Source: Polytrichum commune (taxonomy: Eukaryota; Streptophyta; Polytrichopsida; Polytrichales; Polytrichaceae). Taken from it: a stretch of DNA of 64,000 nt. Numbering within the stretch: position 1 is the stretch's first letter; each line of letters begins with the position of its first letter. Below, in pieces: positions 1,831 through 63,480 of the stretch. A program made the translations under genes and the position numbers. The DNA is taken from positions 12,496,501 to 12,560,500 of the forward strand of contig OX485805.1 in NCBI GenBank assembly GCA_950295325.1. The letters are read 5' to 3'. The notes under the pieces are model-generated. The model did not search any database and was not told the origin of the DNA. It saw only the letters and a program-made list of their open reading frames with translations.

Positions 1831-1914
1831 GAGAAGGCTTCCAGGTATCATAAAATTACCAGCAAGTGGTAGGAGCGGGTACAACTCTCAATCGAAAACA
1901 AGCAGCCAAGAATC

Positions 1915-7156: not shown

Positions 7157-8836
7157 CACCCTAACCTTGATAATGTCACACCCTCCGTTTCACCAAAAAG
7201 TGTGATATAAACAAGGTGTGACATACTTGATAATGTCACATTTTGTGCATAATGTGATATTATCAAAAAATATGTAGAAAATCAAAATATAATTACAATT
7301 TTAAAAAAAAAATACGAGACTTCAATGCTTTTGAATGTAAAATCTAATTCAAAATTGTGAATAACAACAAGAGCACATCATAATGTGTCATTGAGATCAG
7401 GTAAAGACCTCTCACTAGAGACAAAGAAGCTTCTAATGTCACATTGTTTTGTTGATGTTAAATGTGCAACACCAATTCTAATGAGTTTGTCATGGATTTT
7501 TTCCATTTCTAACAACTCATGAGTGCTGAAAATCTGAGAACCTTGGCTAGCCATAAAATTCAAAACATCTTTAGCATATTTTTGTGCATCGCTTAGCTTC
7601 ACTACTTTAGATTCATCATCACTGCTATCAACAATCAATGTGTCCACTTCCATGGAATCAAGAACCTGTTCGCCATCTTGCACTAATTGCACAAGCTCCT
7701 CAGTAGAAAATTCCACCTCAAAATCATCTTCACCTTTCATGTTTATGTACTCCAAAGGACAAAGCTTTTCTACAGGCTTGCCTTCAACATCCAAACCCAA
7801 ATTTAATACGGCGATGAGTCTACCCAATTCCAAAGTTGCTTCCTCCATTTTGGACTTCATACGTTCATCAAGATTGTTTATATCTGCATTCCACTCTGCA
7901 GGCAATATGGCGGACTTTCTCCAACAATTTCTAATGGTTTGATCATCTAATTCATGCCATGCCACCACACACCATAGCATAGCTTGAAATACATCAACAT
8001 TCAATTTCCCCAAATCTTCATTTGAGTTGTTATCAATTTGTTGCAAAGTCCAGGCAACAAGCTTGCGCTTATAGCACATTTTGAATGCTGCAATCACTCC
8101 TTGATCCAAAGGCTAAACAACTGAAGTCACATTTGGTGGAAGGAGCAAGATAGTGATATGGGAGAGTACAAAAGCATTAAACCCATCTATAACTTTCTTG
8201 ACCTCACCATGAATATCATGGCTTCCTGCATTATCCATAATAATCCTCAGGAACCACCGATTGATCAACTTCCACCTCACAATGCAATTCTCTGAAAATG
8301 CCACAGAATGAATGCCAGCAGTCTAAGTTTGAAACAAAGAAATCATTTACAAGGTCTTCAACACCGAATTGATTCAACAAGCCTCAAAGCTTCAAAAGTA
8401 CCATTTAGGAAGAAACCTTGTGGATGCAGCAGTTTGTTGAGGAGAGCGGCAAGAAGATGAGGGGCAGAGCGGTGTGTGGAGCAGCGAGAGGAGAGAGCAT
8501 ACGATGCAGGCGAAGCTGCGAGAAGTTGATCTGCGAGAGAAACCGTTGCTTCTTCGGCACATGAGATTCAAGATTCAAGAACCCAAGATTCAAGCGGAAG
8601 CAGGTGAAGATGCCGACGTCATCCATAGAATTTGTTGTCCATCCGGCCTTTTTTCATCCATGTTACTTGTTATTATCACACTTACACTACAAATTTTGAA
8701 AAAAAAAATGTGACATTATCAAGGGTGATAGTGATAATAACGAGGGAGTTTTACACTATGGAAATCGGTTTCAAACTTTTAGGTGACAATATCAAGGTGT
8801 TCTATTAACAAGTGTGACATTATCAAGGTTAGGGTG
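7157..8836 (-). mobile_element. pogo/Tigger-type (Tc1/mariner) transposon, family P1 copy 1
   Basis: A 1,680-bp element with inverted ends CACCCTAACCTTGATAATG..., flanked by TA on both sides (7155-7156 and 8837-8838). The minus strand carries a broken pogo-type transposase. The 8310-8640 section, between transposase and end, is not shared with the two other P1 copies and looks like filler DNA. It is the longest copy and still lacks the transposase DNA-binding part, so it is non-autonomous. Confidence 0.85.
7378..8304 (-). pseudogene. pogo/Tigger-type transposase, N-terminally truncated, with in-frame stop
   Basis: Minus strand. 8304 to 8113 encodes I-I-M-D-N-A-G-S-H-D, which holds the second catalytic Asp of a DDE_1 domain, and L-L-L-P-P-N-V-T-S-V-V. 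A TAG stop (8110-8112) then replaces the Gln codon of the family motif Q-P-L-D-Q-G. The same frame goes on with P-L-D-Q-G-V-I-A-A-F-K and a 243-codon tail to 7378, including C-W-R-K-S-A-I-L-P and an acidic E-E-L-V-Q-L-V-Q-D-G-E section. The N-terminal CENP-B-like helix-turn-helix and the first catalytic Asp are missing. The family ordinarily excises and inserts its own element at TA sites; this copy cannot make a working enzyme. Confidence 0.85.
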
Positions 8837-8838
8837 TA

Positions 8839-9945
8839 ATGACAAATGCCCTCTTAACTATGGCATTAACTACTAGTCATGCAATGGATTAGATATCCAT
8901 CGAGAGGAGAGTGGATGATTGAGCTATGGAAACGGCGAGTCATGCCCTTCAATTGGATGTGCGACCACTTATAATGTCCATGTTTTGAGTAGCACATAGT
9001 GTAATTGCATCTTGGCACATGTCTAATTGGGGTCTCTTTGGTATTTGTTTTTAATCACAAACCTTGCCATATATCACTCAAGCATAGGTGTTCAATTAAG
9101 AAGGGTAACCACATAAAGTCTCACATACATTGTAGCATCATCTTGTGACTACTCTTCACGAATGCCACAAATAAGTTACAGATGCGCAACCTTAGCTAAG
9201 AATCAAAGAATCGTTGAGTCTTGAGATGTGTCTTATGTTTTTGAACCATTTGAAAAGGATCTAGCTCCTCAATGCTCAGAGGGTGGACTCTTCATGCCAT
9301 GTATGAACTAACGTAAGTGTAAGAAGGGGTTTTATTTGAGGCATTAGCATACATAGTATACATAATGGAGAAATATTATTTTTCTCTAATGTCTACATTT
9401 AAAAAGGCTATTAAGAATGTTGATGTAAAGGTAGATGTACAAAAGGGGGCCCTAGGGTTTAGAGAAATAATTGACAATAGATGTGTTAGTTCCATCCAAT
9501 TCAATTTTTCATTCATTGTTGTCAAATGTTAAGAGTCCTTAATGATTATCTTGTTCATTCTTGTTGGGATTTGCAATTGGGTTTTAGGTTTTTACAAACT
9601 AGAGGCTCCTAAAGCACTCGTGGGTTCCCTTGAGTTTTGCTCTCTGCATTGTGACTAATTTATCGTGCTCTTGTCTTTGTTTGCTTGATGCAATCGTAGA
9701 GTTACATGCTGTGGATTAAAAAATGTTCAATGACTTTCTTCTTGAAAAGTGAAAGTGGAATTTTACATGTATTCGACTTATTATAAACTCAAAGTGATCA
9801 ATTTGGGTCTGAAACTTAATTGAAGTTGGAGCATCCAAATGCAGTCAGTTGAAGTGTAATGGACCATAAGCATAAGAGGAGCACAAATGTATGGAGTTGG
9901 ATTAACCTAAGAAAGGTAGTGTCGAATAACTGGCAATGTTGCTTG
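8839..9945. other. Intergenic, no gene seen
   Basis: AT-rich, with no convincing ORF, RNA gene or paired termini. Confidence 0.5.
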
Positions 9946-46668: not shown

Positions 46669-46905
46669 TCAAAGAAGTGGATGAATTCTCCTATCCTTCA
46701 TGTTTCTCCAAACAAGCATCACTGCATTCCAATCGATGTTTTCAACTGGAATATTTGCACATGAAATGCACATGAAAGCTAAAGCAACTGAGAGACCGGT
46801 GAGAGATAACTTGATTGCAGTCGTCAAATGAACCGGTTGAGTTTGAGAAAACACCTGTTGAAGTTCAAGATTGCAGGAGAAGATTGTTCCGGCGGCACTC
46901 TTCAA
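46669..46905 (-). pseudogene. hAT transposase C-terminal fragment
   Basis: The minus-strand frame ends in I-D-W-N-A-V-M-L-V-W-R-N-M-K-D-R-R-I, closely like D-I-D-W-L-A-V-M-Q-E-W-R-N-M-R-D-R-R-I of the hAT at 10477, preceded by a decayed L-S-V-A-L-A-F-M-C-I-S. The upstream C-E-R-x-F-S part is lost. The first half of the open frame is not transposase. Confidence 0.7.
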
Positions 46906-47045
46906 CTTCTTGAATTCAAGTTAGTTTCAAATGAACCGGTTGAGTTTGAGAAAACACTTGTTGAAGTTCAAGATTGCAGGAGGAGATTGTTCCAGCGGCA
47001 CTCTCCAACTTCTTGAATTCGAGTTAGTTTCAAATGAATCGGTTG
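46825..47045. repeat. 103-bp tandem duplication inside hAT element 2
   Basis: The unit begins caaatgaaccggttgagttt at 46825, 46928 and 47031 (third copy partial). Confidence 0.8.
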
Positions 47046-47433
47046 AGTTTGAGTGACTAAGTTTGAGTGACTGAGTCTAGTTCAGTTTCTATGAACTAGT
47101 CTGTGGACAAACAGACAAAATGGGGCAGTGGCAGGCTGGCAAATTGGTAATTATAATAGAAAAAACAGAAATGAACGAAGATAGTAAGATACTATTGTTT
47201 CCAAGTGGCAAGTGCACCAATCACATGCCGACATCTTTCGGGTTATCTTTATTGATTTGTTTTTTCCTTTAACCTTTTCATGGACGGGTTGTTTTTTCTT
47301 CAACCTTTTCATGGACGGGTTGGTTTTGAAATTACCGGTTTTGGGACGGGTTGCAATTTTTTTTGCCTTTCAATTCGAGGTTTTGGGACGTGGACGGGTA
47401 AAAACTTTGTGAAAAAACAACCCTGCCCATAAT

Positions 47434-48290: not shown

Positions 48291-48597
48291 ACTACACTAA
48301 ATATGATATTTAGTGTTAGATACACTAAATACAAACACTACACTAAATATCACTAACCCTATGAAAGTAAGTAACATTAAATGTAAACTCAAACACTAAA
48401 TATCATCTATGGTAATATGTGAAAGTTACATGCACGAATTTAGTGTTTAGTAGGAAAGAGGTGGCAACAAGGAAGGCGGTGGCGGTGCATTTATGTCTAA
48501 CACTAATTATCAAAGAATTGAAAATTAGTGTTGAGCAAAGTAGGGTGGTAAAACACTAAATCTAATCAAACACTAAATATCATATTTAGTGTAGTGG
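48291..48597 (+). mobile_element. MITE family M3, copy 3
   Basis: Left ctacactaaatatgatattt and inverted right ctacactaaatatgatattt match perfectly over at least 20 bp. It is nearly identical to the copy at 42463, so the family moved fairly recently. Confidence 0.75.
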
Positions 48598-49966
48598 GAA
48601 GTGTCATTTGTGTACATTTAAGTCAACTTGTAGACCATTGTGCAACATAGGTCATGCACCTTATAACACTCTTGAACATACTCATGTCAAGATGTTAGTA
48701 AGCGCACTTGAACACCAAGTGTCATGATGAAGTTGTTGATCATAAATGTAACCTAGGATATGATGGGGAAGCGACACTATCATGCATGTGACACTAGAGT
48801 AGAGGCGTCCATAACCAATCGCTTAAGAAATCTTGTACTAGATATGGAGAAGCATAAGCCAATGCAATTTTTATTTTTATTTTTATTTTATTTTTTGCGT
48901 GTAGGAAGCTAGAAATCATGTTGGTTGCAAAATAAAAATTAGTAATTTTATTCCTTAAATTGACATTTCTATGAATTTTTGAAGTCAAAGTTGGTTTGAA
49001 CATATTAATGATACATATAGTTTGCCATAACCGCTCATTCTTCTTCACTTCAACACTCAAACCTAGGACATGTATCATGGCACTATTGGTTATGGCCTAA
49101 TTGAATTTTAGTCCCAACCTGATTGAAACTGTGCCGCCCTATAGGTTCCTAACGGGGTCTTGATCGGGAATAGGTGCCTCTACTCTAAATACCACAAAAG
49201 GTGTAGTGGTCAGTTCTCCCCGTTCATCATGAAAGAGGAGAGATGCTTTAAAAGTGAGGATAGAAGCATATAAGTTATTATACTATTAATTGTTTTTGTT
49301 AACATTAACTCGGTGCAGCGAAGTATGTAATAACATGCTCTTCATAGCTAGGTACATGTTTATAACACTTACCATCAGGGAAGGTGAAAATGGTTCTTTG
49401 CGTGTGGCGGGTTACAAGAACATTGAAAATTGGACCTTCCTTGCTTTAGTTATGGTTATCGGAAGTGCATGTTTGTTGATTTCTTCATTGGATACGTAGA
49501 TCCTCCCAATCGTGTTTACTATCGAGTGTAGAGTAGTTACTAACACTTGAAGACGTAGTCCAGTCTCTTTTAAACATACGTCTTTCAATCTCCCACCACA
49601 TAAAACTACTTTCATCACAAGTAATCCTATGGCTTATGCAACTCTGGGCCATTGTTATTATCGATCGTCGCAAAGGCTTACGTACAAAGTATGAGCCTGG
49701 GGCGAACCAACCCGTACAGTGGTTCCTTGGAGACCAGGGTTTAGGCATCCAACAAGGAACGAGTGTATGGGTTGGTTCGCCCACATCCATAGTATGGCTA
49801 GTGTCATTGTATGATTACCTTTATCTTGCTCTCTACTTTCTACTACACTTTAAGAAGGAAGCTTTACTGTGATTCAATCAATATTTTTGTACATGGCACG
49901 AATGTCAAAGACTAAAAAATGACATTTATCTATTAATAAATAGTCAAATTTGAATATGTGACATGT
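48598..49966. other. Intergenic, left flank of the large Mutator-like element
   Basis: Contains dispersed repeats shared with 47460-47640 and 13910-14040. No gene. Confidence 0.4.
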
Positions 49967-49975
49967 ATTGTATAC
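49967..49975. repeat. 9-bp target site duplication, left
   Basis: ATTGTATAC, repeated exactly at 63472-63480. A 9-bp duplication is diagnostic of Mutator-like elements. Confidence 0.9.
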
Positions 49976-50018
49976 GGAAGACGTTAAATACCCCCCCACG
50001 AACTTATAGGGGGCACCT
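49976..50018 (+). repeat. Left terminal inverted repeat of the Mutator-like element
   Basis: Begins GGAAGACGTTAAATACCCCC and ends TTATAGGGGGCACCT. It pairs with 63429-63471 at 41 of 43 positions. Confidence 0.92.
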
Positions 50019-50299
50019 CTGACATGTACAGAACTGCCCGCGAAGTGACGTCAGCAGTGTCCAGCCGTCCATCCACTCCACTCGACGTTCATCCACTCCA
50101 CGTCCGCGTTGAAGGCGTCCTCCAGACCTGCATAGCTAGGATTTAGTACACGACATTGACATATACTAAGATCCTTATACATTTATACATACAATGTTAT
50201 ATACACAATGTTACAAGTATAGGGTACTGTATATCCAGTTCTGCATCTGCTGTCCTGTATACCCAGATCTGTACACCCAGACCCAGTTCTGCATATGTA

Positions 50300-50600
50300 C
50301 ATATACAGTACATGCTCTGCAAATATGCGATGGAATGTTCCTGTATATCTACCTATACAGAACATTCCCTTCAGATCTGCGATGGAGTCGTTCTGCATAT
50401 GTACCTATATAGAACATACTCTGCAAATATGCAGAATGAACTCGTTCTCAATCTCTACCTATAGATAACATGATCTGCAGATCTGTACATGGACTCGTTC
50501 TCAATATCTACCTATAGAGAACATGATCTGCAGATCTGTAAATGGACTCGTTCTCAATATCTACCTATACAGAACATGCTCTACATGTATGCGAATGGAG
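50300..50600. repeat. Subterminal tandem array, about 54-bp unit
   Basis: acctata.agaacat recurs at about 50351, 50402, 50458, 50512 and 50566, with gatctgcagatctgta and ggactcgttctcaatat between. It may bind transposase or shape the promoter of the plus-strand gene. Confidence 0.75.
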
Positions 50601-50726
50601 TGATTTTTGGATCTAGGGTTTAAGGGTCTTGGAACGCAGAGCACACATTTCTTTGCACAGTGTGTGATGGTTTAGGGTTTCGTCATTTGTGCTCGCGTTT
50701 TTAGATTTTGAGTTCTTTGCTATCCG

Positions 50727-51185
50727 TTTCCAGTTCTGATGTTCGAAGTTGTTGGGTACTGCTCAAATTTTCTTCATCGCCTTCTACTTGCATCCCCTCC
50801 CTCATTTCCAGTTCTGTTGTTCGAAGTAGTTGGGTACTGCTCAAATCTTCTTCATCGCCTTCACCTTGCATCCCCTCCCTCATTTCCAGTTCTGCTGTTC
50901 GAAGTAGTTGGAAACTGCTCAAATTTTCTTCATCGCCTTCACCTTGCATCCCCTCCCTCGTTTCCAGTTCTGCTGTTCGAAGTAGTTGGGTACTGCTCAA
51001 ATTTTCTTCATCGCCTTCACCTTGCATCCCCTCCCTCGTTTCCAGTTCTGGTGTTCGAAGTAGTTGGGTACTGCTCAAATTTTCTTCATCGCCTTCACCT
51101 TGCAGCCCCTCCCTCGTTTCCAGCTCTGCTGTTCGAAGTAGTTGGGTACTGCTGAAATTTTCTTCATCGCCTTCAACTTGCAAGG
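50727..51185. repeat. 78-bp minisatellite, six units
   Basis: Units begin tttccagttctg at 50727, 50805, 50883, 50961, 51039 and 51117. Because 78 is divisible by three and the unit lacks stops, two plus-strand frames and one minus-strand frame stay open across it. The minus frame (51264-50701) repeats a 26-residue acidic unit containing G-D-E-E-N-L-S-S-T-Q-L-L-R-T. Whether any frame is translated cannot be told. Confidence 0.9.
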
Positions 51186-51216
51186 ACACACCCCCTCCCT
51201 CATCACATTTGTATTC

Positions 51217-54200
51217 ATGGAAATGGCCTCCCGAAATTCTGTTCAAGAGAAGGCGACCACCCATTTCCCCCGCAATTTGTCAAATCCTCAATCCAGTGTA
51301 GAGTGCGATGATGACATCCCACAAATCGCTCCTGCAACATTTCGTGCAATGCAGGCTGATCTTATAATTTCGTTGAGAGAGAGAGTTCAAAATCCTCCTC
51401 CAGGTGCATTTGCTATGGACGACTTGGTGTGGACCAACCACGTTACACAAGGTCAAGGGATATAGAAAACCTCTAAGTTAGCTGTAATATTGTGGGAGAG
51501 ACTTGATGATTTCATTAAAGGCGAGCAACAACATCCTCAATTTCCCTGCAATTTTACCAAGGAAATCGTCCGTGTTAACTTGCCAAACTCCTTGCGAACA
51601 CCTCGTGCACACAGTCCTGCTATTGTACTGAGGTTTGACCTACTGCCTGCTCTGAATTTGAAACCACACACTATTCATGTTCTGCTTGTCATAATGTGCT
51701 CACCAGCCAGATATCAAACTTATGCATTTCATTCTACACTCCACAATTTGCAGTACACTGTCCTTACTGTTCATGAGGGTGTATGGATTCCATGTCCTGC
51801 AAATATGTACATATAAAATTTTACATATTCAATACATGTGTTCTTCCATTGCCATTGCAGATACAGGTGCAATTTTGGTCCTGAAGATAGGAGTGATATT
51901 GTTGCGCATGATATGCAAGCTCTACTGAAATCTACACAAAAAAAAAGCAGAAGATGTTGCAAAAGAAAAAGCGAGGTAAGAAGGTAATACCGGAATACGA
52001 GTCTTTCGCAGTGAGCAAATCAACCCGTCCAAAGGTTGCGCGCATTGGCAAGACATATGCGGGCAACTCAAGAAAGCGAGGGTGCCAATGTTGTTTTCTT
52101 GCGAAGAAGCCCTATCTGGACCACTCGTTGTGTTTGCTAATTTATGAAAATGCAGAACACTTGAATAAAGCTGGAGAACACTGCCACGGCACCATGCTCG
52201 GTGGATTTAGATATGCGCTCGGTGCTGGTCTTTCAACTGAAATAAAACAAAAAATTGTTGAAATGCATGCCTATGGATTATCCCCTGCCCAAATCATGCA
52301 ACAACACACCAAAGAGGTTCGTGAGCTTGCCGTGTGTAATGGAGTGGTGACGCGCGACACATTCTTGTTGCCGTGCGACGTCAGAAACATATGTCGAAAG
52401 AGGGCTGAAGATCTGTGGGAGAAACATCCGTCCAACCCGATTAGCGTCCGTATGTGGGCAGCAGAGAATCCAGACAGCGTGTTCTACTACCAAGAGCACT
52501 CGCTACTGGACCTTAATTCTCAAACACAAGACGACTCACCTTTCACCATAGGCATACAAACTGAATGGCAACTTGAAATGATGGCAAACTTCGGTCAACA
52601 ACGCTCTTTCCATTGACGCCACGTTTGGTACCAGCCAGACTAGGGTAAGCTAATGTCCATGTCCTTCATCTTCGTCGTCATGTTCTGTGATGATTTTCTC
52701 ATATTGTCAGTCAATTTGTTTCAACCATGTTCTGCCCTATGCTAACAATGATGTTCATTGTTTCTACAGTACCCACTCTACACTGTTATGGTGTTCGATG
52801 ATTGGAGAAATGGCATACCAGTGGCTTTCTTTGTCATTTCGCGGACACGTGAACAAGATCTCCGCCCAGTTCTTCAAGCGCTGCATGACAGGGTTCAAAG
52901 GTTAAAAAATGATTGGTTACCATCCTCTATTATCGTTGACAATGCTCAGGCTGAAATAAACACACTTGGGTAAGCAGTTATTGTCTGTTCTGCAACTTTT
53001 ACTTTGTAGTCTCACCCCAATATGTAATGCAGTGTCCTGCATTGCATATTGGTGTTAATTATTAATTCCTCACTGTTACAGGTATTTTCCTCAGTGTTCA
53101 TCCTCTGAGCTCATAATCTGCTGTTCTGTCTCTTGCGCAGCATGGTGTGGCCGCAAGCCAAAATTTTCCTGTGCTTGTGGCATGTCAGAAAGTCATGGGC
53201 AGAGAACGCCATCAAGAAAATTTCAAGCGCTGCAGAACGCAACACTGTTCTTCAAATGCTCGGCGACATAATGTACGGGAAAGGTTGCAAGGTTGACGAT
53301 GATCCTATCGACTGGGCCCTCGACCAACTTGACAATATATCTAACACTCGTCCATTGGCGAGTGCGTTCATGACATACATGAACGATGTTTGGATAGTCA
53401 AGACACCAATGTGGTGCGTCGGAGCGCGACGGATACCACATGCAGGACAGAACACTAACGCGGCTATTGAATCCTATCACAACAATTTGAAGAGTGTTCT
53501 AAACTTTGCCAAAGAGAGATTTGTGGGTAGGCGCATGGACTGGCTTATTTATCATCTAACGGGTGACGTTTTGACTCATTACTGGTACAGTGTCCAATGC
53601 AAAGCATACGGATATATACGCAACAAGAAACAAGAGGGTATTGTTGCATCTGCAATTATGGGAGCCAACGACATACCTGATAGTAACGTCCTCATTTGTA
53701 TGGACAAGGATGTTGCATATGTGGGGTTTGTAAACAACCGCCCGAAGGTGTGGACCATCAAATGTCCGGACTCTGAATGGGCACAATGCAACTGCCCCGT
53801 CGCCAAAGAGGGCATGATTTGCAAGCACACCATTAAAGTCTTCAAGATGCTTCACCCTAGAATTGAAGATGGTGCCATAGTGCGTGAAGCTGGTACACGA
53901 CATGGAACTCAGCGCGCCACTCCAATTGCGCGTTGCTACGCAGGACTGTCACAACAGACTACTCAAATCCATGTTTCGGAAGACATGGGCACACCAATCG
54001 AAGTTGAACCTGTGGTGCAGGACAATGTTCTGCAAATTGATGTTGTCGAAGATCACATCAAACTAACTCCTGTGGACGACGAACAGAACCCCTCGCAGTT
54101 CTCCTCTCAGTTTACCCAGATGGACTCCTTCCATTCGACTCCCCTTTCCCAAGAGAGTTCTTCACAAGCACCTACTGCCGCAACCGCGCACGACATTTAC

Positions 54201-54434
54201 GCCACCCTTGCACTCAAGGCTGAGCAACATCCTGTTCTACAAACTCACTTGATCGCTGGCCTTAGGCACATTCGGGGCAAGCAAAACCAGCTTATTGCAC
54301 AAGGGGTTACACGGATGCCATTGACTCCTACGACAACCTCGTTTCCAGAGAGGGCAGGCGACAACTCTTTAAAACGCCGGAGGAGTTTCCTGGAGTTCCC
54401 GTTGCCGAAGAGAAAGCTTTCCAGCTCCAAATGA
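51217..54434 (+). CDS. Mutator-like transposase (MULE), multi-exon, with disabling lesions
   Basis: Cuts the element out and inserts it by DDE chemistry in the nucleus. The N-terminal part runs from ATG 51217 to 51816, interrupted by an in-frame TAG (51463-51465). The core uses exons 51954-52644, 52770-52969 and 53141-54434, with introns gtaagc..acag and gtaagc..gcag. Landmarks: FLYWCH/WRKY-GCM1-like finger with G-C-Q-C-C..H..C-H-G (about 52080-52200); first Asp in I-D-A-T-F-G-T (52615-52617); second in I-I-V-D-N-A-Q-A-E (52938-52940); L-C-L-W-H-V-R-K-S-W; probable catalytic Glu in N-A-A-I-E-S-Y-H (53469-53471); SWIM finger C-N-C..C-K-H (53787-53829). Besides the TAG, a frame change near 52600 just before the first Asp and another at the A-run near 51938-51946 break the frame, so this copy is probably inactive. 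Confidence 0.85.
53787..53829 (+). other. SWIM zinc-finger motif of the transposase
   Basis: C-x-C followed by C-K-H, with P-V-A-K-E-G-M-I between. SWIM fingers near the C-terminus are standard in plant MULE transposases and in the FAR1/FHY3 family derived from them. Confidence 0.85.
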
Positions 54435-55084
54435 TAGGGTTTAAGTGTGAACAATAATCTGCATTATCTGCATATTTGTAATGCAGTACACAGTTAGTTC
54501 TTACTTGTAATAGTTTTTAATTCTGTGTGCAAAGCTATGTGTTAACAATAAAATGGTCCTTCCTAAGTACCATATCTGGGTGTAGTAGGGTGATTCATGT
54601 TCTGGTTACGACATACCTCAGCTCATTTTCCTTGTTGTACTGCAACTCGCTTGTCCTGCTCATTGTGTATTGTTCTGCACCATTGGTTGATCACGCGCCA
54701 GTTGTCCTGCCCATTCCCTGCTCTACACTTCTTCTACTGCACATCGACTGTTTCTGGGTTTGGTGCGTTTTCATCATGACTGCTCCCATCCCTTTCAAGT
54801 GATCCCATCTAACCACATCCCCCCCCAACATCCCATATCACACATGGTCTTCTGAAATGCCATTGTTTTATATCAAAATGGTTGCTATTGAAAGCAGTAC
54901 AAATGGTCTTTGACCTTCGAGTGTTCTTTGTATCATGTTCTATGTTTTCTATGCTGTATATCTTGTTCTGTGTATCATGTTCTGTGTATCCTGTTCTACA
55001 TGACTACACGGTATTTGATGTTGTACAATGTAATGGAAACTGTACATCCATTTTACAACATGTTACACATGTAAAAAATACAAC
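54435..55084. other. Convergent intergenic region between the two element genes
   Basis: 650 bp holding the 3' flanks of both genes. A run of tgttctgtgtatc-type words (54930-54995) is prominent. No gene supported. Confidence 0.5.
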
Positions 55085-58000
55085 CTAACTCTTGTCGACT
55101 ACTTTCGGAGGTCCGACCTTGAGCCTTACTCTGCGATGTCGTTTCGCTGGAGGTCTTCGTCGTGGTGCTGTCTGGTGTACAATTCTCACGTTCCATTCCG
55201 TGGAGTGGTGCCATCCATTCTCTATCACATCGATCAACGCATTCCGAACTACCCTCCTTGTACGCAATGCATTTGTCCTGCTATAGTTCAACGCGAATCC
55301 CTGCAACAACACAAACATCCTTAGAGCATTTGTTGCAGAACAACAGTACATTAATTGTGGTAGTATTATACTTAAACTTTTTATGATCTATTACTCATCT
55401 GCGTATTCTCTATGCATGTTTAGGTGTTCGAAGAGGTCTAAGACTCAATTACCTCACACAATGTAAGGGGTCTATCTCTCACGCTCTTTGTATACTCCAT
55501 GATATTCTTCAACATGTAGAACCCGCAAGCCCAGCCATAATTTTGTTGTGGCACAATTGCTTGTACCCACTGCTGGGACGAGCTAACAACATTCCACATA
55601 TCAGCATCGGTATCATTGCCACTCCACGCAGCCCACAACTTTCCGAGTCTTGTTTCAATTCTGGGGTCGGAATGGAGACCTGACCCTACCAAGGAATCGA
55701 GATGGAAGAACCTGTGTTCCCCTACTATGTAAACGGTCCAATGTTTCCCGCATGTATAAGGAACTATTAAAGTGTTTATGTTCTGCGTTGGAAGGGCTCC
55801 ATGCACGTCATGTATGAAGGCTACATATACCTCTAAGGTGTCTTTTTCTTGCTCCTGAAGATGCGCTAGGAGCAGGTTTAGAAGATAAGGACTGCAAACG
55901 TGACACTTTAAACTCTCAAGTTGGAGATTCAGCCACGCCCTAATCCATTCCATCATGTAGTTACTCAACTTCCCATGATTTTGAACCAAAGGCTTCATAT
56001 CCCCTTTCCACTGTAGACTCAAATTCTCACCACGATACAGAAACTCAAAACTTGCAACTTTCTTCCCACCTGCTTCAGCAATGATGGTGTTAACAAGTTC
56101 CTCAAGTCTGCAGAACACAACCTCATGTATTAGTCTCGTAGCCAGCAACATCAAAGGACGGTATGAATATTATGTTCTGCATCATTAACACTACATAAAA
56201 GTTATCTTCCATCCGATTTTTGTGTTGTACTGCCCAGTACGTCGTCCAAAGTTTTGTCCTCCTTAGGCTGGACAGGACGGGAGCTGACCTTCACTGGCTC
56301 AACATGTTCCTCCACCTCTGATACTACCGGGCACGCAGTGCGAGTTGAAGTGGATGCATCCTTTGTCGCCGTCGAAACTTCACCCATGTTCTGGACCGAA
56401 GTGGATGCATCCTTTGTCGCCGTCGAAACTTCACCCATGTTCTGGACCGAAGTGGATGCATCCTTTGTCGCCGTCGGAACTTCACACATGTTCTGGACCT
56501 CTTTGTAGGCGTCATTGAAAAGTGCGCCTATTTCGTCCGCTGCAGCACCAGCGTCCTGCGAGCATCCGGATGAGTCCAATGGTTTGTTGTGGGTGCAACC
56601 AGTAGGGGTAGTGTCGTCGAGGTTCAACCTCCGTGCTGGAGAAACCATTGTCCTGCCATCCGGAGGCCCTATTGCAAGCGTGTGAGACGGCGTCCTGTAA
56701 AACCACGGTCTTGTGTTGACCATTTAGCAAAAGGCATAGGTGGAAGGCACTTAATTGAACTCATAGGTTGATAAGGGTGTGATATGAGGCACGAACCTTA
56801 ATGGCGTGTTCTGCATCTCAGAACTAAGCTGTGTTAGGGTTAGGTCATGCGTGCTGATGCGGTCGACGCCATTGAAATCCATGTGCATAGGTATTGAGTC
56901 CAAACTCTCCAAACTCATGGCCTCATGTACTTCACCCCCGAACCCCAATGTTGATCGAGATGATTTTTCCATAGGCATCGCCACCTCTTCGAACAACAAC
57001 GCCCTCGTGCAATGTAGGTCAGGGGCAATGTCATCTGTTGTTTCCTCCACTCCCAGTCCACAATTGAACAACCGCAATTGGGTGGACCTTACATATTGCA
57101 AGCTCTGTACTATATCCTTCACCCGCATCTGCACGCAGGTGCTCTTCTTGTGCAGGTCACCCAATGTCAATGTTCCTATGTCAACGTCCTCGCGGAAGAC
57201 CATTGATGAACACAGGACCTGCGCCACATATCCTTCACTTACTTTGGCCATCGTATGTTGTTATACCAGTACTGTTCTGCACTATATAATACTATATTGT
57301 TTTACAATCAATATTCAAAATGTACTATTAGACATATCATGTTCCTATTAACTCCCAATCGTCATAGTGAAGAACATGCTAAACCCCGAGGGTGATTGTC
57401 AGATGAACAGGACTCAGTACATACCTCGCTACACTTCGCTTGGCGTTGCTCTCCGACGTCGACACTGAACCACATGTCAGCAAGCTCACTTTCATGGTGC
57501 ATGCGGACCATGTCTGCGATGGCTCGTTGCGTGATCCTACCGATGAAGGACTCCATTTTCTTAACCACAGCCATGCGCCCTGATGGTTCGTGTCCAAGCA
57601 GAGCTGCAACGTCTGTGAACAGGACATCAATGTGTTTTGCGGCACTCTCGATGCTGGGGAAAGTACACCAACCTGTTGTAGGGATGTTATGGGCAATTGT
57701 CGTCAAGGCGACTGAGTGGACTGTGTCTCGAGCAAGCTCCAATATGTATTCCTCGTGGAGACCTATAGTTGGGTGTGAGATTGGACGACTGAAGCCCGTA
57801 TGATTTCTGACCAAGTACAAAAATGCTCTCAAAACATGCGGGCACTCATGCTCAAGCGACAGAGGCTCGGTCTTCGTGTTCGACAGCAGAACAGCTGACA
57901 TCTCCAGCCACTCTTGTTCTGTGTGGTCCCATGGGCCAGCCTTAAAATTTTTTAGAGGCCATTTTCTGAATATCTGGTACAACGGTGACCATTTCCACTT

Positions 58001-60483
58001 GGACTCCTTCTCTTTCACGGCGCTGTCAAATTTTCGTAACGCGTCTTCGACGTGATTTCTTCTAAAATTCTCAAAGTTGACCTTGGCGGCAGCAACCTTC
58101 TCATCGTACTCCCTTTGTTCGACGCGATAATGAAGATAGTCTTTCAGGTGCCTGAGCTCTTCATACACGTTCACATCGGAATTGCTCTTAAAAACCCTGA
58201 CCTGCGCCTTTATTTTATCCAAAAATTCGCTATGTTCTCCAAGGTTCTTCTGCAATGTATACACCGGCAGAACATAAAAAAACGACTCATTATAAGAACA
58301 TAATATTGTGCAGCCAATCTGATCTGGTAGAACATGAGATAATAGAGCACATTCAAAACTGAAGAACATGGAGTGAAACACAATACCATATTTTTGCCAT
58401 ACAGGTACCATTGCCCGAATGCAACCCCAACGCGATAGCCAATAGAGCCATCTTCCAATTGTTTATGGAGGTATTGCATGCAGCCATCCGGGTCATCTAA
58501 GAGACTTTTTGGCACCCAGTAATCGTCAGTCTCGTTGATAAGCACATAGAGACCATCGACTGGCACTGGTTCTGGAGGCCGTGTAATCTCTTTAGGCACA
58601 TGGAAAAGAACTGTGGCCTCCTTGTACGCGTGTTGTTTGCACTCCTCCCGCGACATGGGGATAGGTTGGACAGGTTCAGTCGAGGGCTGGGCAACAACAA
58701 GGGGAATAGCATCTTCCTGCGGAGGCTCGAGTTGCAGAACAATGTCCGTCACAGGTACTGTTTGCGGAACAATGTCTATGTCTATGGCAGGATTCAACAG
58801 TACACCATCGTGCGAAGTCGTAGCTCGAATAAGTTCAGTCTGCTGAACCTGTGGGTGGATATGTTCCACACGCGACGGCGAAGGCTGCGCACGATGTCCA
58901 TGCTCGTGCGTCACAACACGGAAATGCCCATGGCCATTGTTCTGCGAATTTGGAGTCGCCTCCTTTGATGTGGAGTCGGACTCGCTTGGCGACGTGCCCG
59001 AATTCTGGTCCTCTTCGCTGGAGGATATACAAATCCTGCGAGATGTCTTCCAATTTTTCTTCGGTCGTCCCTTACTGGCAGAGGGTGACTTGGGTACTCT
59101 GGGCGGTCCCTTCACTGCAAGGTTTTGCGCCTTGCGGGGTGGTGATGAGGGAGCGGCGTCCACACCAACGTTGCGAGTTCTACAGCCAATGATAGGAACG
59201 GGCGTCCTCGTTGTTAGCTTGTGTTTTCTGGATGGAACACCATGTTCTGCATCGGCAGCTACCAATGATGTACTGCCCACTGGATTGGACTCTAATTCCA
59301 GAGGCGAAGGAAACTGCGATGGGGATTGAGAATGCGACCCATGTGGCGAGGAAACCTTGTTGAATTTCTGTGCAATCCTATGCTTCTCTCCATGATTGTT
59401 TGGCTCCCAGGTTGGATACATCTTGAGTGGCTTCTCTCCCGTATAGCTCTTATATAGGTTAAACATCATATGGTAAGAGACAATGTTCTTATCCTTGTAT
59501 GACTCATTGCAATAAATACAATTGAACCTGTACCTGTTGTTGGCCATTTTAACTTTGTCCCTCGCCTGCCAATATGCCTCTACCACAAGCTCCTCATACT
59601 CATCCTCTACGTACATACATGCACAGGTCTTCCTATTTTGTTTCATGGTACAACGGAAAACCCTAGATGTTCCATCTGGACCAACAAACACCTGCAAAAC
59701 AGTACATGTTCAATATGTAGAACTGATGGGAGGGAAGAAAGTTCTGATAGAACTACAGGACATGTTAAATTCCTAAAACAGATGAGAGGGAAGAAAGTTT
59801 TGATAGAAAAAACAGGACATGTTCATTTCCTAAAACTGATGGGAGGGAAGAAAGTTCTGATAGAACTACAGGACATGTTAAATTCCTAAAACAGATGAGA
59901 GGGAAGAAAGTTTTGATAGAAAAAACAGGACATGCAAATTTCCTAAAACTGATGGGAGGGAAGAAAATTCTGATAGAACTACAGGACATGTTAAATTCCT
60001 AAAACTGATGAGAGGGAAGAAAGTTCTCATACAAAAAATAGGACATGTTAATTTCCTAAAACTGGTGGGAGGGAAGAAAATTCTCATACAAAAAATAGGA
60101 CATGTTAATTTCCTAAAACTGATGAGAGGGAAGAAAATGCAGTGAGCAAAATATGACTTGTTTAATACCAAAAACTGATGCTTACCCCTTAAAAGTTCTG
60201 AGAGAATTTAACATATTGTTGTGTATGCAAATATGTAACCAACAATACAGGAAAATGGTAAGGAAAAACAACACAACAAGTTCTGTGAAGGAATGCTTAC
60301 CCCTTCTTGCCAGCCTTGTTTACCATGTATGCTCAAGTGGATGAATTTGTGCCTCCCCAAGGACCTTATCAGGGCTTCATCTTCGAGGACATGCCAACCC
60401 ACAGCAAACGCCTCTGGAAGAAGTTTCGCCCCGTTCTTGTTCTTAGTCACTTTGGATGCTCATGTTCCTTCAGTTGTCGCCAT
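55085..60483 (-). CDS. Transposon-borne Ulp1/C48 SUMO-protease-like gene, seven exons
   Basis: Minus strand, about 1,360 codons, presumed nuclear. Exons by phase and splice signals: 60483-60301, 59691-58387, 58249-57425, 57218-56797, 56694 to about 56202, 56107-55453, 55300-55085. Exon 2 has C-x2-C..H (residues 60-76 of its open frame) and an AT-hook-like G-R-P-K-K (about 210), then Ser/Pro-rich linker. Exon 5 repeats 17 residues (V-Q-N-M-G-E-V-S-T-A-T-K). Exon 6 is the C48 domain: His in G-K-H-W-T-V-Y-I-V, Asp in F-H-L-D-S-L, Gln and Cys in P-Q-Q-N-Y-G-W-A-C-G-F-Y, all intact. Exon 7 is basic. Ulp1 enzymes release SUMO from conjugates; such genes travel in some plant MULEs, perhaps to alter host control. 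Oddities: TGA at codon 8 (60460-60462); the exon 5 donor is not found; the exon 4 acceptor is uncertain. It could be two genes. Confidence 0.75.
55453..56107 (-). other. Ulp1-like (C48) peptidase domain exon
   Basis: Exon 6 of the gene above, acceptor tgttctgcag and donor gag|gtaatt. In the open frame starting at 56154 the catalytic residues fall at His138, Asp153, Gln204 and Cys210, with the family Q-x5-C spacing. The preceding C-S-P-Y-L-L-N-L-L and I-N-T-L-I-V-P-Y segments match the start of the C48 fold. Confidence 0.85.
56345..56500. repeat. 51-bp tandem repeat in exon 5
   Basis: Three copies of gtggatgcatcctttgtcgc plus cgtcgaaacttcacccatgt. It keeps the minus-strand reading frame and encodes a 17-residue Ser/Thr-rich repeat. 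Confidence 0.85.
59725..60145. repeat. 57-bp minisatellite in intron 1 of the protease-like gene
   Basis: The unit starts gatgggagggaagaaagttc, with aggacatgtta and ttcctaaaac. There are about seven units; the first five alternate between an actacaggacatg type and an aaaaacaggacatg type, suggesting amplification as a dimer of about 113 bp. It lies wholly inside the intron 60300-59692. Confidence 0.85.
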
Positions 60484-61370
60484 TAATGCGTTCGGGTATG
60501 ATGATTTCAATTGTGCACAAAAAACACTCAAAACTACACTTGAAAATGAGCAAACCCTAAACCTCACACGCTTTCATAATTTGCTGGCATTAAATGTGCG
60601 ATAAGGGAATGAAGAGTCTGCAAATAAGCAAAACTGCAAACCCTAATAAAATTGTGCAGAATGTCGCTAATGAACGGCCGTGGACATAAACTGCCGCAAT
60701 AATAACTGCTGCTACAACAACAACCAGGAGCAGTTATTGGACACCAATCGATTAGCACTCAAAACCCTTGGAATGCCGCAAAAACCTTTCGAGTATAACC
60801 CGCAACCGCTTCGAATGTCACTAAAAACGCTTAGATTCTAACTAAATCGACTCATCGAAATCCAGTCCACACTCGCCGGACACACACCAGCTCATAATTT
60901 TCGCACGTTCATACTCAAAAGGAAATCAAGCAGTTCACGAATGAAACCCTCGCAGCCCTTTACAAGCTCTTTAGAAAATGGTTAAACTTGCTGGTCTTCA
61001 ACCCAATGACGTCCAAATGATACCTAATAATCCTAAACAATCACTTTCAGTGAAATCACTACGTCATGATTGATGCAGCTATCATTAAAGAGCATGGGCG
61101 TACGACATCCCTTGAGCAGGACAGCAGTCGCGTCGAACTGCTCTGTACATGACTGCAGTCGCGAGGAACTGGTATCTACATGAAGGCAGTCACGTGGAAC
61201 TGCTGTGTAGAACAGAACAGTAGTGCAGCAGTGCAGCAGAACAGCAGTGCATCAATGGCGTGGAGGTGATATGTACAGCACAGTAGTAGCGTGGAACATT
61301 AAATAGGGAAAATGTTCAACTTGAAGAGGCTGTCAATGTCTCCCTTGTTCTATGTTGGATTTGAGTTCGT
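60484..61370. other. Upstream region of the protease-like gene
   Basis: Probable promoter and 5' leader on the minus strand. It includes a short repeated cag.cgcgtggaactg./agcagtgcagca segment (about 61120-61290). No gene seen. Confidence 0.5.
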
Positions 61371-63000
61371 GTTCGACAATGAAGCACTGTCCATCTCCCA
61401 CTGTAATAAAATGCATACCGTCTACGTTGGAGATGACTCCATGATCCACAACCAATAAGAATGCATGTTCCACTATAAACCATAGCCCATGTTCCTAAAC
61501 CAAAAAGAGTGCATGTTCCCAAAAAACCAAAGTCAATTTTCGACAATCAAACAGAGTCCATGTTCGACAATCAACCAGTGTCAATGTTCCACAACCAATA
61601 ACATCCATGTTTCACAATCAAGCAGTGTCCATGCTCCACAATAAACCAGTGTATATGTTCCACAATAAACCAGTGTCCATGTTCCTCAATAAACTAGTGT
61701 CCATGTTCCACAATCAAGTAGTGTCCATGTTCCACAATCAAGCAGTGTCCATGTTCCAAAATCAAGCAATGTCCATATTCCTCAATAAACTAGTGTCCAT
61801 GTTCCACCCATATTCCTCAATAAACTAATGTCCATGTTCCACAATCAAGCAGTGTCTATGTTCCACAATCAAGCAGTGTCCATATTCCACAATCAAGCAG
61901 TGTCCATGTTCCACAATCAAGCAGTGTCCATGTTCCTCAATAAACCAGTATCCATGCTCCACAATCAAGCAGTGTCCATGTTCCATAATCAACTAGTGTC
62001 CATTTTCCAGAACCAAGAACATTCATGTTCCACAATCCTATGTTGTACTAAATAATGTCCCTATGTTGTGCTAAATAATGTCTCTATGTTGTGCTAAATA
62101 ATGTCCCTATGTTGTGCTATTTTATGTCCCTCAATAAATTAGTGTCCATGTTCCACAATAAACCAGTGTCCATGTTTCACAATCAAGCAGTGTTCATGTT
62201 CCACAATCAACCAGTGTATATGTTCCACAAACAAGAACATCCATGTTCTACAATCAAGCAGTGTCCATGTTCCACAATAAAGCAGTGTCCATGTTCCTCA
62301 ATCAACCAGTGTCCATGTTCCACAATAAACCAGTGTCCATGTTCCACAATAAACCAGTTTTCATATTCCACAATCAAGCAGTGTCCATGTTCCATAATCA
62401 ACCAGTGTATATATTCCACAACGTAGAACATCCATGTTCCACAAGCAAGCAGTGTCCATGTTCCACAATCAACCAGTGTATATGTTCCACAACGTAGAAC
62501 ATCTATGTTCCACAATCAAGCAGTGTCCATGTTCCACAATCAAGCAGTGTCCATGTTCCACAATCAAACAGTGTCCATGTTCCACAATCAAACAGTGTCC
62601 ATGTTCCATAATCAAGCAGTGTCCATGTTCCACAATCAAGCAGTGTCCATGTTCCACAATCAAGCAGTGTCCATGTTCCACAATCAAGCAGTGTCCATGT
62701 TCTACAATCAAGCAGTGTCCATGTTCCTTAATAAACCAGTGTCTATGTTCCACAATCAACCAGTGTCCATGTTCTTCAATAAACCAGTGTCTATGTTCCA
62801 CAATCAACCAGTGTCCATGTTCCTCAATAAACCAGTGTCCATGTTCCACAATCAACCAGTGTCCATGTTCCACAATCAACCAGTGTCCATGTTCCACAAT
62901 CAACCAGTGTCCATGTTCCTCAATAAACCAGTGTCCATGTTCCATAACCAAGAATATCCATGTTCCACAATACTATGTTATGCTATTTTATGTCCCTATG
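61370..63000. repeat. 24-bp minisatellite array, about 1.5 kb
   Basis: The unit gtgtccatgttccacaatca plus agca, with a second variant ctcaataaacca in the last part. Variants interleave in blocks. The left edge (61370-61560) is degenerate and the core (62500-62940) very regular. The length is a multiple of three, so several frames stay open for 100-190 codons (for example repeating V-S-M-F-H-N-Q-A); these are not taken as genes. Short 23-bp interruptions occur at 62040-62130. Confidence 0.92.
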
Positions 63001-63140
63001 TTGTGCTAATTAATGTCCCTATGTTGTGCTATTTAATGTCCCTATGTTGTGCTATTTAATGTCCCTATGTTGTGCTAATTAATGTCCCTATGTTGTGCTA
63101 TTTTATGTCCCTATGTTGTGTTATTTTATGTCCCTATGTT
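62975..63140. repeat. 23-bp tandem array
   Basis: The unit gtccctatgttgtgctattt plus aat, about seven copies. The same unit also appears inside the 24-bp array at 62040-62130. Confidence 0.85.
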
Positions 63141-63159
63141 CTCCCTAGCTAAGTTCAAT

Positions 63160-63335
63160 TCAATGTGTATTGTATATGATGTCATGTATACGATGTCATG
63201 TGTGGGATGCACTGTATACGCAGTCCTGTATACGGGGTTATGTATCCGCTGTATTGTATACGTTGTGCTATATACGTCGTATTGTATCCGATGTCCTGTA
63301 TCCGGCGTCATGTATACGCTGTACTGTATACACCA
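63160..63335. repeat. 15-bp degenerate array near the right end
   Basis: The unit tgtatacg.tgtcctg/a, about eleven copies, ending about 95 bp before the right terminal repeat. It is subterminal in position. Confidence 0.8.
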
Positions 63336-63428
63336 TATAACTCCTGAACGCGTTGTCATCCATACGCGTCCGCGAATGACCGGCACAACCGGTCACCCCG
63401 TCGCCGGGCAGCCCTGCACATTTTCAGC

Positions 63429-63471
63429 AGGTGCCCCCTATAAGTTCGTGGGGGGGTACTTAACGTCCTCC
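63429..63471 (-). repeat. Right terminal inverted repeat of the Mutator-like element
   Basis: Inverted counterpart of 49976-50018, with two mismatches. Confidence 0.92.
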
Positions 63472-63480
63472 ATTGTATAC
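63472..63480. repeat. 9-bp target site duplication, right
   Basis: ATTGTATAC, identical to 49967-49975. Confidence 0.9.

Follow-up and report, generated by a model that had tools for sequence, protein, structure and literature searches.

A two-gene Mutator-like element with a convergent C48 peptidase gene and family-specific short motifs in a probable moss genome

The window analysed here, a stretch of 64,000 nucleotides, carries a Mutator-like element (MULE) of ~13.5 kb at positions 49976-63471 that is bounded by terminal inverted repeats (TIRs), and in which a transposase gene is met by a convergent second gene encoding a CCHC zinc finger and a middle domain, followed at the C-terminus by a C48 (Ulp1-type) peptidase domain. 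It is almost certain that the element has two genes of its own, a transposase and a C48 gene paired with it. Related copies were observed across the genome, which was searched as 407.8 Mb (408 Mb; the seven largest contigs total ~406 Mb); the two genes have diversified together, the catalytic residues of the peptidase are conserved, and the different families have amassed arrays of their own short motifs.

Pairing of the transposase and the C48 gene across the genome

Among the transposase matches, 132 of 133 were counted (one small second piece was dropped), together with 117 of 152 C48 matches (second pieces of split loci and two unlisted matches were dropped). A convergent C48 match was observed within 10 kb of 77 of the 132 transposase matches, whereas 1000 runs of random placement averaged 0.21, with a maximum of 3. 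The pairing was found for 68/82 transposase matches at 60% identity or more and for 1/33 below 48%, and just one transposase match had a C48 match within 10 kb in any non-convergent arrangement. When counted from the peptidase, a convergent transposase lay within 25 kb of 28/31 C48 matches at 60% identity or more, 41/56 at 40-60% and 12/30 below 40%; the C48 matches without such a partner may be fragments or diverged copies. The initial annotation had allowed that the C48 exons might turn out to be a host gene unconnected with MULE ends, which is not what the 28 of 31 closer matches display. A host C48 gene lying between MULE ends by coincidence would account for a C48 gene with no transposon hallmarks of its own, but this explanation is refuted by the frequency of the shared layout and by the position of the C48 gene inside copies bounded by target site duplications (TSDs), leaving it with virtually no probability.

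For tree building, 34 of the 77 pairs were hand-picked so as to be nearly full-length and to cover a spread of identity, with stops entered as X. The protein distances of the transposases and of the C48 domains are strongly correlated (Mantel r 0.977 for the 34 loci, with a maximum of 0.479 in 10,000 permutations; 0.931 for the 28 closer loci, with a permutation maximum of 0.294), and the maximum-likelihood trees of both proteins share families A (that of the window copy), B, C4 and C1_51, as well as C3_36/C5_47, a 12-member group G and a distant group D. In five comparisons of family A with B or C4, the ratios of non-synonymous to synonymous change (dN/dS) were 0.22-0.25 for C48 and 0.15-0.19 for the transposase, while many deeper comparisons were saturated; these ratios indicate that purifying selection acts on C48 from one family to another. 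The C48 identity within the genome falls to 20-30%.

Ends, target sites and copies of the element

The left TIR (49976-50018, plus strand) has a 43-nt core, with likeness to the opposite end reaching ~65 nt at 88%, and the right TIR (63429-63471, minus strand) spans 43 nt; the arms are complementary at 41/43 positions (95%). They are flanked by an exact 9-bp TSD, ATTGTATAC, at 49967-49975 and again at 63472-63480, for which the chance of a 9-bp match at fixed ends is p ~5e-6 under the base composition of the window. The first 300 bp of the element gave 17 genomic matches of at least 281 bp each and 88-100% identity, the window counted. In family A, an exact 9-bp TSD was observed in 15/16 checked copies with left and right ends paired (window counted), the copy at C1:38.8 Mb being without one; subfamily B showed an exact TSD in 4/4 copies (three of 9 bp and one of 10 bp), and a 9-bp TSD was also found in one copy of the C1_51 family. 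Duplications of this size agree with the 8-11 bp typical of the Mutator superfamily. The inverted ends and the duplication proposed in the initial annotation are thus confirmed and recur in sibling copies, where the ends bound the same element and not unrelated sequence. Family-A copies range from 11.3 to 46.2 kb in length, with 11/16 between 11.3 and 15.5 kb, and one copy of 30.8 kb has its transposase interrupted by ~18 kb. A search for TIRs and TSDs recovered none in the stretches taken from C4, G and D or in those of two T elements. The joined flanks of the window element matched the genome only as two halves at the window itself, so that no empty site was found; the proposal that this copy inserted recently agrees with its exact TSD and with the 2-4% synonymous divergence of its transposase from three siblings, and was put too strongly.

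Structure of the two genes

The transposase is predicted to comprise three plus-strand exons, which are exon 1 (51954-52644), which encodes a Cys/His cluster at the N-terminus as well as the first catalytic Asp; exon 2 (52770-52969), with the second catalytic Asp and the MULE domain; and exon 3 (53141-54434), with the catalytic Glu and a SWIM-like CxC...CxH. The acceptor AG of exon 3 reads AA in one sibling. Exon 2 of the window copy alone matches Pfam MULE (E 1.2e-6), and an unbroken sibling transposase of 584 amino acids matches MULE (E 1.3e-16) and the ZSWIM1-3 RNaseH-like domain (E 7.7e-11), with a predicted catalytic triad of D222/D288/E408. The MULE identity given to this gene at the outset was therefore upheld, whereas the SWIM finger is seen as the CxC...CxH motif, its later Cys residues and His near-invariant across 39 aligned transposases, with a Pfam SWIM score below threshold in the window transposase (12.8 bits against a cut-off of 19.6). 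The PF03108 DNA-binding domain is the marker of mudrA-type transposases. Scans of the 584-residue sibling gave no match to PF03108 (at E up to 10) or to FAR1, and a genome-wide PF03108 search had no match even in its controls, so that it carries no weight.

The second gene runs from 59709 to 55438 in five minus-strand exon frames. The first (58210-59709) harbors the N-terminal CCHC finger, a Ser-rich linker and an AFGQWYLYG block, and overlaps the second (57362-58462), the exact junction not being fixed; the second contains the conserved middle domain (WKWSPLY...CPHILRA), and its 3' part is also present in family D. The third frame (56751-57260) is conserved in families A, B, C4, C1_51 and G, the fourth (56202-56723) contains a 17-residue tandem peptide repeat, with 3 units in the window copy and 2, 4, 2 and 2 in four siblings, and the last exon (55438-56107, its open frame running on to 56169) encodes the C48 domain. 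The five frames are collinear in A, B, C4 and C1_51, while only parts of the first, second and last are recognisable in D. The finger, C-x2-C-x12-H-x5-C, was found by pattern in siblings of family A and in C4, C1_51 and D, and by alignment in B.

The C48 domain of the window copy matches Pfam at E 6.3e-7. In the alignment of 19 stop-free sequences out of 38, H143, D158, Q209 and C215 are invariant in 19/19, as are W79 and W144, and the Pfam match, the convergent layout and these residues together bear out the convergent gene with a C48 catalytic tetrad that had been read from the window at first. The profile of the 19 sequences was matched to the solved structures of an Ulp1-like SUMO protease (best E 1.8e-6), SENP8 and SENP1/2; the domain thus resembles Ulp1, SENP1/2 and SENP8 in C48 fold family and catalytic H-D-Q-C, and differs from the cellular SUMO and NEDD8 proteases by its low similarity to them. 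Naming it a SUMO protease went too far, as SENP8 stands among the nearest solved structures besides Ulp1 and SENP1/2. When modelled with AlphaFold from one sequence each, the C48 exon and the middle-domain exon had a mean predicted local distance difference test score of 40.9 each, and these poor models were left unused.

MULEs often capture gene fragments, and several copies here have stops in C48, as would be expected of a functionless passenger, a host ULP fragment captured by Pack-MULE-style transduplication. Such a passenger would not account for the purifying selection between families and the invariant catalytic residues, nor for the matching trees and the exons collinear across families; moreover, the host-type ULP locus that was read, a piece of a multi-exon gene (C5:50311500-50314500; VPQQDNQCDCGIFLLHYVELF; Pfam C48 E 1.9e-9), is quite different and split over exons. 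A passenger is accordingly very improbable. Pack-MULEs proper, with a captured fragment and no transposase, do not describe the element, in which the transposase stands beside C48. Several further host-type ULP matches were observed in the C5 region around that locus.

Family-specific short motifs

Dispersed 7-mers were ranked per family and their counts set against 100 first-order shuffles. The window element holds 24 dispersed GTTCTGC sites between 50238 and 61242 (shuffle mean 1.8, maximum 6), and the same 7-mer occurs 60 times in B (maximum 6) and 20 times in C4 (maximum 5); GTCCTTC occurs 22 times in C1_51 (maximum 5) and 27 times in G (maximum 6), and GTAGTGC 24 times in D (maximum 4). 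Positions 1-48000 of the window hold one GTTCTGC, two GTCCTTC and three GTAGTGC. With their flanks the motifs read TGT-TC-TG-CA, TGT-CC-TT-CA and TGT-AG-TG-CA. In B, GTTCTGC lies inside each of four tandem arrays whose units are otherwise unrelated, and in the five families other than A the motif is 1.5-2.7 times denser in non-coding than in coding sequence, the non-coding part of C4, G and D including unbounded flanks. Held-out loci were fetched in two rounds with predictions fixed beforehand; the G-clade loci exceeded all shuffles for GTCCTTC in 3/3 (9, 6 and 13 against maxima of 4, 2 and 4), and another locus, for which no prediction was set, contained 5 GTTCTGC against a shuffle maximum of 3.

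The density of the telobox-like AACCCTA was 0.25 per kb in window positions 1-48000 and higher, at 0.50-0.98 per kb, in A, B, C4, C1_51 and G. Telobox-like boxes in plants can recruit Polycomb proteins.

Candidate role of the second protein

VANC proteins of the Arabidopsis VANDAL elements bind short motifs that have multiplied in tandem within the proteins' own VANDAL family, cause loss of methylation on that family, and contain variable tandem peptide motifs, according to PMC5735166; some VANC genes carry an Ulp1 domain, according to a review (PMC13317346). The elements described here resemble this system in having a second gene beside a MULE transposase, a short motif specific to the elements' own family, largely in fast-changing tandem arrays and mixed at one held-out locus, and variable peptide repeats in the protein (here the 17-residue repeat of 2 to 4 units). 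They differ in having TIRs, in giving no DUF1985 match and in bearing the motif in exons as well.

By analogy with VANC, the most likely mechanism, to which we give an even chance, is that the second protein would serve as a sequence-specific anti-silencing factor using its ubiquitin-like-protein protease domain. The finger or the middle domain would read the short motif amassed by its own family (approximately TGTTCTGCA here, TGTCCTTCA or TGTAGTGCA elsewhere), the peptidase would act at the motif sites on chromatin or silencing proteins, cutting off SUMO or a different ubiquitin-like tag, and only the element's own family would be re-opened for expression and movement. Taken separately, reading of the family motif by an element-encoded protein is a balanced proposition, and action of the C48 peptidase in anti-silencing is conceivable, with the balance tilting somewhat to the negative.

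Several observations weigh against this anti-silencing role or the integrity of its parts. The last Cys of the CCHC finger is Tyr in the window copy, the catalytic Cys is replaced by Tyr in 1/38 C48 sequences, and 14/34 chosen C48 domains contain in-frame stops; within family A, the C48 dN/dS against the two nearest siblings is >2, with very few changes. Two base pairs are deleted at ~52595 in the transposase of the window copy, a change absent from 7/7 siblings compared, which shifts the frame ahead of the first catalytic Asp, so that the element, initially termed intact-ended, is intact at its ends and not in its genes, the transposase being frameshifted and the finger short of one Cys. No DUF1985 match was found in the second gene, the E cut-off of the scans being 1 for the exon frames overall and 10 for the first three. 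Regarding the motif, 1/2 predictions failed in the first held-out set: in the outer parts of C3_36.56, GTCCTTC occurred 3 times against a shuffle maximum of 4, and the internal part was mixed (GTCCTTC 4, maximum 2; GTTCTGC 5, maximum 3). In A, GTTCTGC is equally dense in coding and non-coding sequence (1.76 and 1.79 per kb), and the largest array, of 24-bp units, carries CATGTTCC instead of GTTCTGC; second variants occur in other families (GTTCTTC 21 times in C4 and 12 times in C1_51, GTTCTGC 8 times in D). The C48-less elements T124 and T125 (loci L124 and L125) contain a dispersed 7-mer too, GTAACAT, at 23 and 16 sites, indicating that the motif is independent of C48. Lastly, motif binding, demethylation and the substrate of the protease are points that we infer.

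The main rival to the anti-silencing role is that of a transposition co-factor, in which the peptidase would act on the transposase, or on host repair and replication proteins at the element, to free them of SUMO or a related tag, and the dispersed motif would be a binding site of the transposase or of an accessory protein. A second gene, mudrB, is also present in maize MuDR, and the co-diversification of transposase and C48 as well as the spread of a motif along the whole element, C48-less relatives included, would fit such a role. Binding at the ends, however, predicts sites near the ends, whereas sites were observed in introns, in exons and midway along the element, and the arrays turn over like VANC targets; a co-factor is therefore regarded as unlikely, though a serious contender.

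Elements without C48 and the distant D group

Transposases at 45-48% identity (some 33 matches) form a supported group (100/98) apart from the C48-bearing ones, and one long-branch transposase fragment without C48 nests among the C48-bearing clade. In two members of the C48-less group, L124 and L125, the product of the convergent gene aligns to the middle domain over 170 columns at 23% identity (hhalign; probability 91.9, and E 7.1e-7 as computed for one comparison), and C48 was not found in the four convergent-gene frames scanned in these elements. The sister clade thus seems to possess the middle domain but no C48, which is suggestive that C48 probably joined a pre-existing partner gene, or else was lost in the sister clade.

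Beside the C48-less MULE of L125, positions 7797-9428 of the locus hold a 544-residue frame of leucine-rich-like repeats (LTNLIALEELSF...LKHVPEGFGTLTCLKKL). Four D-group loci were observed to have a second C48 gene, forming a clade of its own (C48b), 10-37 kb onward in the same orientation (C2:581215-595835; C1:58328842-58358757; C6:28209246-28253436; C6:39259440-39275094), accompanied at three of the four by a second middle-domain match.

Host lineage and relationship to known ULP-bearing transposons

Four SAM_LFY loci were detected in the genome, and the three that were read each contain GLDYLFDLYEQC, with Asp at the diagnostic residue; Asp at this position is taken by us to mark the moss-type LFY protein, and His type I LFY. 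Most known cases of type II LFY come from mosses and one liverwort, according to PMC6588583. The host is probably a moss, as judged from these LFY-like loci, and the non-seed plant on which the first interpretation of the element had been made conditional is thereby probable.

ULP-bearing MULEs have been described in flowering plants, with the benefit of the protease to the transposon left unanswered in the review PMC13317346. They include Kaonashi (KI-MULE)/KIU of Arabidopsis and the ULP MULEs of rice, melon and grapevine, which share with the present element a MULE with a reversed C48 gene and dozens of copies; at least 97 Arabidopsis MULEs have an intact C48 (PMC6117577), and in melon ULP occurs in TIR-MULEs and Jittery-like MULEs (PMC2528002). 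Kaonashi differs in being non-TIR and having mudrA, whereas the present element has 43-bp TIRs and a transposase without PF03108, its C48 domain ends a protein with a finger and a middle domain and no DUF1985, and its host is probably a moss. An Ulp1 domain has also been described in other DNA transposons, namely CACTA of grapevine (PMC2528002) and Ginger (PMC2836005), the transposases of which are unrelated to that of the present element. No report of bryophyte ULP-bearing MULEs was found in the open-access literature, subscription papers and preprints being outside the scope. The novelty lies in the host lineage, in a transposase that gave no PF03108 match, in a protein joining finger, middle domain and C48, in a sister clade devoid of C48 and in motifs specific to the families; the co-inherited pairs, the C48-less clade and the several motifs make the role of the protease testable, as they offer natural swaps of reader and motif.

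Common descent with Kaonashi/KIU would imply a single MULE-ULP pairing predating the split of mosses and flowering plants. It would explain why ULP converges on the transposase in reverse orientation in both (PMC2528002), and why C48 has diverged so deeply inside this genome. It is at odds with the MULE and ZSWIM1-3 RNaseH-like matches of a transposase without PF03108, since Kaonashi is mudrA-bearing and non-TIR according to PMC2528002; with the dating of the angiosperm capture to the monocot-eudicot split in the review PMC13317346; and with the C48-less clade, which suggests a local gain, or a loss in that clade. Common descent is accordingly improbable. The pairing looks like an old one separate from angiosperm Kaonashi, a reading favored because the transposase is without PF03108. 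Of the old or independently built association suggested in the initial annotation, the age of the pairing is supported and its independence is favored on these grounds.

Taken as a whole, the fuller history that could connect these observations is tentative and rather doubtful: mosses would have a separately built, transposon-encoded and sequence-specific anti-silencing system with a ubiquitin-like-protein protease as its effector. An older MULE partner protein would have acquired the C48 domain, after which each family would have remodelled its sequence around a motif of its own, TGT-NN-T-G/T-CA, to match its reader, and several protein-motif pairs would have drifted apart within one genome.

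Tandem arrays and surroundings of the element

Five tandem arrays were observed inside the element, which are a 53-bp array (50286-50599) in the left non-coding part; a 78-bp array (50725-51182), open in several frames; a 57-bp array (59696-60136) upstream of the second gene, with ~17 copies in the sibling at C1:36.6 Mb; the 24-bp array (61438-62971); and a 14-bp array (63166-63331) adjoining the right end. Scans of the window for tRNA genes and Rfam families gave no match. Elsewhere in the window, an open frame of 819 amino acids (1873-4329, plus strand) had no Pfam match at E 0.01, and a DDE_1 match (7381-8112, minus strand; E 3.1e-9) represents a pogo/Tigger-like transposase remnant. Left of the element, two inverted repeats resembling miniature inverted-repeat transposable elements were found at 48291-48595 (31 nt, 97%, 243 nt apart) and 49700-49782 (30 nt, 90%, 23 nt apart), and a 103-bp tandem repeat of 2.2 copies, 95% alike, lies at 46824-47053.

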